Source: an uncultured Algoriphagus sp.
GTDB lineage: Bacteria; Bacteroidota; Bacteroidia; Cytophagales; Cyclobacteriaceae
Assembly: GCA_903952135.1 (NCBI GenBank)
Contig: CAJBER010000169.1
Span: 1 to 46,942, forward strand
Direction of reading: 5' to 3'
Length of the DNA stretch: 46,942 nucleotides
Shown here in pieces: positions 137 through 37,992 of the stretch; positions within the stretch are counted from its first letter, which is position 1, and every line of letters begins with the position of its first letter. The notes below the pieces were generated by a model. The model did no database searches. It was not told where the DNA came from and saw nothing but the letters and a program-made list of their open reading frames with translations. The position numbers and the translations under genes were made by a program.

Positions 137-292
137 GGCTACGTGAAATAATAAAGGGAAATACAGTGGAAATAGACTACGCTGCGCTTCGTGAAATAAG
201 TGGAATTACGATTTGAACCCTATTTCCCTGAGCTTGCTCAGGTTATTTCCACCTTATTTCTATTATATTTCTACCCTATTTCCATCGTATCC
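137..292 (+). repeat. Composite inverted element, copy A (11-nt phased GAAATA words)
   Basis: The word GAAATA starts at 145, 158, 169 and 193. Its reverse complement TATTTC starts at 221, 244, 255, 266 and 277. Spacing is 11 nt (once 13), with one 23-24 nt step in each arm. The left long step holds GACTACGCTGCGCTTCGT; the right one holds the perfect hairpin CCTGAGC-TT-GCTCAGG at 227-242. The centre contains GGAATT. The element ends about 11 nt before the ATG at 304, so if transcribed it would lie in the 5' leader of the phosphatase gene. It is colinear with the inverted copy at 37796-37992. The pattern is read directly; any function is unknown. Confidence 0.75.
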
Positions 293-303
293 TTGACTAA
301 CTG

Positions 304-801
304 ATGAAACATTACTTTTTAGTATTCAGCTTCCTACTTATTCTAAGTGCCTGCACTGCTCAAAACTCTCCCAAAACGATCTACATCGTTCGCCATGCGG
401 AGAAGCAACTGGAAGGTAAAGACCCAGAACTCGCCTATGTTGGCGAAGTGCGTGCTAAAAAACTTGCGCAGATTCTAGAAAAGGAAGGAATCAAGCGGGT
501 ATTGTCAACGGATTACACCCGAACCAGAAATACCGCTCAACCCACTGCTGCCGCGGCAGGACTGGTAGTGGAGTATTATGATCCCAAAAATCAAGAGGCT
601 TTTGTCACCGACCTGCGTGGCAGCGAAGGCAATGTCCTGGTAGTCGGACACAGCAATACCGTCAGCCAGCTGGCCAATGCTTTTATCGATGAAGGGGAGA
701 AATTTGCAGACTTGACCGACCTTGAGTACGACTTTATCTATATAGTAACCTTAGAAAAAAACGGGGCTAAAGTGGTGCGGAAAACCTACAAGGATTTTTA
801 A
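304..801 (+). CDS. Histidine phosphatase (SixA/phosphoglycerate-mutase superfamily) lipoprotein
   Basis: The 165-residue protein opens with a lipoprotein signal: a charged start, a hydrophobic stretch and the lipobox LSAC with Cys17, so it is probably anchored in the outer or inner membrane facing the periplasm. The mature part has the superfamily's catalytic RHAEK motif near residue 31, where the His is transiently phosphorylated, and the second conserved histidine in VVGHSNT near residue 114. The length fits the short SixA-like branch rather than full phosphoglycerate mutases. The substrate cannot be read from sequence. It is followed by its own terminator at 833-859, so it is probably monocistronic. 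The ATG at 304 is chosen because it begins the signal peptide exactly. Confidence 0.8.
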   Translation: MKHYFLVFSFLLILSACTAQNSPKTIYIVRHAEKQLEGKDPELAYVGEVRAKKLAQILEKEGIKRVLSTDYTRTRNTAQPTAAAAGLVVEYYDPKNQEAFVTDLRGSEGNVLVVGHSNTVSQLANAFIDEGEKFADLTDLEYDFIYIVTLEKNGAKVVRKTYKDF

Positions 802-37795: not shown

Positions 37796-37992
37796 ATTGT
37801 ACAATGTACCATGTACTAAGTACCAGGTATGAAATATTGTAGAAATACAGAAGAAATAAACCCAGCAAGCTCGGTGAAATAGGGAATTCAGGTGCTATTA
37901 CCACCTATTTCACGAAGCTAAGCGAAGTCTATTTCTACCTTATTTTCATCGTATCTCGTACTTCGTACTTGGTACGTTGTACTTCGTACAAT
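37796..37992 (-). repeat. Composite inverted element, copy B, with heptamer-array flanks
   Basis: The outer ends are ATTGTAC (37796) and GTACAAT (ending 37992). GTAC begins at 37799, 37806, 37813 and 37820 on one side, and at 37958, 37965, 37972, 37979 and 37986 on the other: an exact 7-nt period in both. Inside, GAAATA begins at 37831, 37842, 37853 and 37876, and TATTTC at 37906 and 37930, with TATTTTC at 37941: 11-nt steps with one 23-24 nt step per arm. Read on the minus strand it is colinear with copy A (137-292), including GACTTCGCTTAGCTTCGT in place of copy A's GACTACGCTGCGCTTCGT. It fills the gap between the RsmB-like gene's stop and the guaB promoter. Confidence 0.8.

Follow-up and report, generated by a model that had tools for sequence, protein, structure and literature searches.

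A dispersed intergenic repeat family with facing GAAATA arrays and hairpin modules in Algoriphagus and related Cyclobacteriaceae

Copy A, an intergenic element of phased GAAATA words and hairpin modules in an uncultured Algoriphagus sp., is a member of a dispersed repeat family. The best reading of this family is REP/BIME-like, with a new word-and-hairpin grammar. In its fuller form, that copy A belongs to a non-coding intergenic repeat of Algoriphagus and related Cyclobacteriaceae, REP/BIME-like and acting at the DNA level, we hold this reading with belief and doubt about evenly balanced.

Structure of copy A

The window, by which we mean the whole stretch of 46,942 nucleotides that was analysed, is the entire contig C169. 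Copy A lies upstream of a phosphatase gene; the gene before it in relatives we take to be a putative RluA-type pseudouridine synthase. Its parts are as follows.

137-292, no strand assigned: copy A, whole element, with ragged outer ends
158-260, plus strand: conserved core with the GNA-type module in the left arm; 112.1 bits with model R1, a self-inclusive score, copy A being among the 18 seed sequences
145-150, 158-163, 169-174 and 193-198 (span 145-198), plus strand: left arm, GAAATA words
151-157, plus strand: 7-nt spacer ataaagg, a recurring spacer type
175-192, plus strand: 18-nt module, N-AC-TNC-GC-TNC-GC-TNC-GT
199-220, plus strand: centre, made up of a 4-nt spacer, the degenerate word GAATTA (203-208) and a 12-nt loop
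221-226, 244-249, 255-260, 266-271 and 277-282 (span 221-282), minus strand: right arm, TATTTC words
227-242, no strand assigned: hairpin module CCTGAGC-TT-GCTCAGG, with one extra base at 243
304-801, plus strand: downstream gene, histidine phosphatase superfamily branch 1 (PF00300)

The nine words listed in a first-pass annotation of this DNA were all found where it had placed them (starting at 145, 158, 169 and 193, and at 221, 244, 255, 266 and 277), and the hairpin at 227-242 is perfect, as it had stated. Nine words in 156 nt compare with at most three in 20000 base shuffles. Successive words are 13, 11 and 24 nt apart in the left arm and 23, 11, 11 and 11 nt apart in the right, so that the 11-nt steps and the single 23-24-nt step per arm of the earlier description hold, while the 13-nt step that it gave to both arms occurs in the left arm only.

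On the opposite strand the 18-nt module reads AC-GNA-GC-GNA-GC-GNA-GT. GNA between G-C pairs is the loop type of very stable DNA mini-hairpins, and a mini-hairpin reading of the module leans on this motif pattern and on what has reportedly been found for d(GCGAAGC). We did not retain it: the folding program predicted no fold for the copy A module with DNA or RNA parameters.

Copies in the window, the genome and relatives

A second copy lies in the same window, flanked by IMP dehydrogenase and RsmB/F-type methyltransferase genes.

37831-37946, minus strand: copy B, with its core at 37842-37946 on the minus strand; 101 bits, copy B likewise being part of the model R1 seed

With at most one mismatch allowed, GAAATA-N5-GAAATA matched seven times in the window against 0.30 expected, four matches falling in copy A and three in copy B. 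The genome to which the window belongs is incomplete (2.84 Mb in 249 contigs, 89.9% complete). It contained 103 exact occurrences of this pair and none of its reversed control; the 10-nt step (N4) occurred 10 times, against twice for the corresponding control. Model R1, built from 18 cores, gave 37 core matches in this genome, where the palindrome can match on both strands, and these represent at least 20 distinct places; two contigs, C116 and C199, by eye apparently carry one copy at two contig ends. Several copies lie near contig ends, and GAAATA copies may add to contig breaks.

The model also matched 46 of 72 genomes of the genus (E <= 1e-4, stricter filters). Further copies in the 11-nt phase, to which the first-pass annotation had tied the idea of a real family, are thus present both in the genome itself and across the genus. 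Over 100 sources searched with default filters, there were 129 matches, 114 of them non-overlapping, which yielded 110 distinct cores. A three-word pattern, GAAATANNRTDGAAATANNRTDGAAATA, was found in 21 of the 58 genomes of a first sample of relatives and in 0 of that sample's 22 non-genus genomes; a wider sample of Cyclobacteriaceae had it in 31 of its 196 genomes, belonging to 14 of the 84 genera covered, and the reversed control stayed at zero in all rows of the count. Named carriers among the matches listed were mainly Algoriphagus, Belliella, Cecembia, Mongoliibacter, Indibacter, Aquiflexum, Cognataquiflexum and other Cyclobacteriaceae, and matches from other groups were a minority, most of them short. 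Longer, mostly one-armed GAAATA-type 11-nt arrays were seen at four loci (L124, L105, L134 and L139) in an Omnitrophica bin and, outside the main family, some Bacteroidota bins, which suggests that the simple unit array may spread wider than the composite element.

A grammar of words and modules

The repeating unit has the 11-nt consensus GAAATA-N-R-R-T-D. Among 98 5-nt spacers from the own genome, collected with no base demanded, position 4 was T and position 3 a purine in 97% each, and 44 of the 98 were distinct; this set is free of the bias that partly affects the wider spacer statistics, for which the search patterns demanded R and T. Between same-strand words, modules of 5 nt prevailed (676 cases), with further short classes at 4 (87), 7 (12) and 8 nt (62) and longer ones at 10 (51), 12 (20), 17 (46) and 18 nt (92). 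The remaining lengths below 20 nt were 15 (12 cases) and 16 nt (55), with all others at nine or fewer each; by eye, the 16-nt modules are mostly two 5-nt spacers flanking a mutated word.

Modules of 8, 10, 12 and 17 nt can be taken as hairpins of two, three, four and seven pairs, respectively, with one free base added. Perfect hairpins made up 15 of 30 unique modules at 8 nt, 20 of 37 at 10 nt, 5 of 12 at 12 nt and 20 of 33 at 17 nt, against shuffled means of 1.4, 0.7, 0.1 and 0.01. Only 4 of 80 unique modules in the 18-nt class were perfect 7-pair hairpins; within the core set, the TNC pattern N-AC-TNC-GC-TNC-GC-TNC-GT, with N free, describes 62 of 80 modules of this length. Close to the centre, a typical core carries an 18-nt module in one arm and a 17-nt hairpin in the opposite arm.

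The arms face each other in a consistent way. Of 193 clusters, 92 had GAAATA on the left and TATTTC on the right, 5 the reverse and 1 a tie, and 95 were one-armed, so that the facing rule is kept in 92 of 98 two-armed arrays; the loci behind this count, as behind the module lengths and hairpin counts, include some from outside Cyclobacteriaceae. Some element modules at L043, L187 and L308 contain, by eye, palindromes rich in GC, CCCGCCGCGGCGGG being one example, as well as stretches rich in CTGCC. L066, L080 and L103, from other genera, carry GATATT-rich arrays (gatattggatattgatggatatt) mixed with GAAATA words.

Such regularity could also reflect an array used by the host, on which a nucleoid protein, a gyrase-like protein or a boundary factor oligomerises at GAAATA words about one helical turn apart, with the hairpins serving as spacers or cruciform anchors. 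The near-constant spacer bases (T at position 4 and a purine at position 3, each 97% of 98 own-genome units) are consistent with this, as is the excess of the 11-nt over the 10-nt step (103 vs 10). Against it, the phase is broken by other steps: beside the 676 steps of 11 nt there are 62 of 14, 51 of 16, 20 of 18, 46 of 23 and 92 of 24 nt, and a single continuous helix face is therefore lost unless the hairpins are extruded.

Turnover at fixed gene junctions

Orthologous junctions differ in what they carry. At locus A, the gap of one relative (G006) measures about 31 nt and contains a single word, other relatives have one or two elements, and the sequence of the nearest relative (G013) is a different one that includes two phased words. 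Copy B's element is found at locus B of G058 too, and G013 carries another repeat-rich insert there. CTTG-N3 heptad-like arrays stand at the junction of the GAAATA element in three locus A orthologs (L185, L192 and L196), and in two locus B orthologs (L218 and L220) CTTG-N3, CAAG-N3 and AGTA-N3 heptad-like arrays occupy the GAAATA-element junction, all of this as judged by eye.

Sites common to at least two genomes held 103 of the 110 cores, a share raised by the choice of loci among top matches, many of them from close relatives; new insertions therefore look rare. The largest shared site (25 elements in 13 genomes) may merge neighbouring junctions. Both core orientations occurred at 6 of 16 shared sites. 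Median core identity was 0.840 for reversed ortholog pairs (n=63), 0.885 for same-orientation pairs (n=194) and 0.828 for a sample of 800 non-orthologous pairs, the ortholog pairs not being independent of one another. Counted per site, similarity was lower for reversed cores in 5 of 6 sites, which is not significant (p 0.16). Pure inversion of the core in place is accordingly disfavoured by the pair medians and not significantly so per site.

Outside the core, words differed at 6.7% and spacers at 26.3% of positions in 122 ortholog pairs, a biased comparison in that words were picked as exact in one sequence and alignments favour words; the apparent conservation of words may in part come from alignments locking on to them. 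Taken with that bias, the difference would suit a host-used binding array. Evidence on the other side comes from the distribution of the copies: 26 of 72 genus genomes gave no model match under strict filters, and near relatives lack the copies at loci A and B or carry different ones. We regard a binding array maintained for the host as a real but lesser possibility.

Position beside genes, folding and covariation

Gene contexts were taken from a simple ORF caller (>=100 aa), not from annotation. On this basis the 110 cores lay in 71 co-directional, 22 convergent and 7 divergent gaps, with 9 at edges and 1 inside an ORF, and control gaps of at least 80 nt from the same loci comprised 27 co-directional, 8 convergent and 14 divergent. 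Divergent gaps were depleted: they held 7 of 100 cores and made up 14 of 49 control gaps (Fisher p 8e-4). In a wider set of 193 clusters, gathered with looser criteria, 111 were co-directional, 18 convergent and 19 divergent, while 32 lay at edges and 13 within ORFs; the control counts were 255, 48 and 89. Co-directional cores lay at medians of 35 nt from the upstream stop and 64 nt to the downstream start, and showed no significant orientation preference (18-nt arm upstream in 42, downstream in 29, p 0.15). One site falls within an apparent his operon, where the genes on either side were interpreted as hisF and hisIE and a further His_biosynth gene precedes them; the element is thus no obligatory terminator there. 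Similar hisF-hisIE junctions on two contigs of one genome (L305 and L325; G058:C176 and C175) carry different, oppositely oriented cores, and perhaps one bin holds two strains.

The 17-nt hairpin covaries, both in the 110 cores and in the alignment of 18 cores, and in this respect the compensatory changes envisaged in the first-pass annotation were found. In the 18-core seed alignment, 3 of 17 outer-stem pairs had changed on both sides, and the covariation score of the whole structure was reached by 0 of 500 shuffles. The spacers of the two arms behaved otherwise in the 110 cores. Watson-Crick pairs numbered 41, 47, 56, 104 and 42 in the five arm-to-arm columns, against shuffled means of 41.5, 49.4, 46.2, 104.1 and 47.3, so that four of the five showed no covariation and the third was slightly raised (p 0.03). 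A long arm-to-arm stem under selection is, despite the three seed pairs, without support from these columns, and we rejected it.

These data bear on a structured RNA in leaders, 3' UTRs or operon junctions, which would affect stability, processing or attenuation. The siting of cores between co-directional genes and after stop codons fits such an RNA. Copy A is also more stable than its shuffles when folded as RNA (z -2.8 and -3.8 for the two strands), but the same holds when it is folded as DNA (z -3.4 and -2.9). Orientation, by contrast, shows no significant preference, and the 113 stem cells, few as they are, gave no signal of a wobble bias by transcript strand (G.U : A.C was 39:27 with the 18-nt arm upstream and 29:18 with it downstream). 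The arms covary little, and there is no Rfam match in the window. The more specific proposal that copy A folds as RNA in a 5' leader, made in the first-pass annotation, finds no support: cores also lie in convergent gaps (22 of 110) and close after stop codons, without significant orientation bias, the arm spacers lack covariation beyond one weak column, and the few stem cells gave no wobble signal by strand. A functional RNA of any of these kinds seems unlikely to us.

Search for a carrier

RAYT-type genes (Y1 transposases) are common in the genus, with 261 matches in 64 of 72 genomes, and the hairpin modules and gene placement are REP-like, as would be expected of a REP family mobilised by RAYT. 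The loci and the counts point the other way. No GAAATA-N5-GAAATA pair was present at any of 32 RAYT loci examined among the 261 matches, and over the 72 genus genomes RAYT number and element number showed no rank correlation (rho -0.13, p 0.27). Genomes were discordant both ways, three having at least ten element matches and no RAYT match and twelve at least five RAYTs and no element, counts in which several assemblies are incomplete. We consider RAYT carriage very improbable. Larger assemblies hold fewer elements (rho -0.69), perhaps an effect of a single clade whose assemblies are small and incomplete. At two own-genome RAYT loci (L181 and L182), other palindromic repeats, gctccggaggagc and gtgccgtaggcac, were seen by eye in the flanks; these are perhaps the own REPs of the RAYT genes.

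A classical MITE moved by a cut-and-paste transposase has only the slightest chance of being right, for all that the family is dispersed and non-coding and has inverted arms, because its ends are undefined (0 to >100 nt of further units on either side in 109 elements) and no direct repeat clearly beyond chance stood at the borders of the same 109. Carriage by phages or plasmids likewise drew no support from the collections searched: a viral collection gave one matching contig, AT-rich, whose 251 nt inspected lacked a facing arm, and the matches to 17 plasmid records (E up to 10) were short and weak, with less than 80% of the query covered in every case.

A second family of phased words

Two further phased-word arrays lie in the window, with copy B between them.

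37799-37823 and 37958-37989, facing each other: GTAC-N3 arrays

With its 7-nt step, GTAC-N3 occurred at 126 three-unit places in the own genome, against 0 for its reversed control. The middle base of the spacer was A or T in 95 of 96 cases and marks the arm, A in the left and T in the right; of five neighbouring run pairs, four had the A type left and the T type right, and the fifth had A then A. A broader and decidedly speculative proposal is that facing phased-word arrays form a DNA element class of their own, in which at least two unrelated families (GAAATA-N5 and GTAC-N3) share a plan with arm-marking spacers, are copied or exchanged by an orientation-blind factor that reads words and hairpins, and compete for gene junctions.

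Proposed mode of action

In favour of the REP/BIME-like reading are the copy number beside controls of zero, the facing rule, the preferred module lengths with their excess of perfect hairpins, the covarying 17-nt hairpin beside arm spacers that hardly covary, the placement relative to genes, and the two core orientations at shared sites. Counting against it are the apparent rarity of new insertions, the non-significant site-level result for reversed cores, the outer-stem changes of the seed alignment (not borne out in the larger set), the 18-nt module with no predicted fold and few perfect hairpins, and a word conservation that may partly be an alignment effect. Under this reading, we suggest that each GAAATA unit is read as sequence, either because a DNA-binding protein recognises it or because it serves as a word for annealing, and that the hairpins may extrude in single-stranded DNA at the replication fork. 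As the arms face, the element would look alike from both sides, and for this reason a core could be exchanged between copies, or could re-enter an existing array, in either orientation. Behind genes, at their 3' ends, copies would be either tolerated or put to use, like BIMEs.

The family is a compact and strongly patterned repeat system; no carrier gene for it, and no description of it, emerged from the searches made. Binding and mobility assays could build on the exactness of its preferred lengths and facing rule, and its cores, which change while the gene junctions stay fixed, are a natural record of palindromic-repeat turnover in bacteria.

Comparison with known systems

The first-pass annotation knew of no described family with this structure, and we likewise found no published description of the GAAATA word-and-hairpin grammar in the open-access literature; an Rfam 15 scan of the window gave no match above gathering score. 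MITEs are dispersed, non-coding elements with inverted arms. The GAAATA family resembles them in all three respects and differs in having no fixed ends and no target duplication (109 elements).

The nearest precedent for short intergenic words in Bacteroidetes is, in what the consulted part of PMC4679880 describes, the TAACTGA-type heptamer, which forms direct repeats in Beggiatoaceae, Cyanobacteria and some Bacteroidetes. As far as that part goes, the two share short intergenic word arrays, a patchy distribution and the presence of other heptamers alongside. They differ in that there the heptamer itself is directly repeated, whereas the GAAATA family combines a 6-nt word with a variable 5-nt spacer (an 11-nt unit, 44 of 98 spacers distinct), facing arms and hairpins.

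REP/BIME elements, GTAG- or CGTC-tagged, are covered in PMC3733652, in the consulted part of which CGTC repeats seem to be without a dedicated transposase and are present in Bacteroidetes among other phyla. RAYT-linked REPs usually exceed 100 copies per genome, against 103 unit pairs, 37 core matches and at least 20 distinct places in the own genome. Read directly, the modules between GAAATA words showed no GTAG or CGTC tag beside their hairpins, and these hairpins, unlike those of REP/BIME, have GAAATA words on both sides, within facing arrays phased at 11 nt. Since neither the tag nor the RAYT flanks that define RAYT-linked REPs turned up in the modules and the 32 RAYT loci examined, we do not file the family as a member. 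What it shares with REP/BIME, going by the same part of PMC3733652, is the short, palindromic, extragenic hairpin, placed mostly downstream of genes and built into composite arrays.
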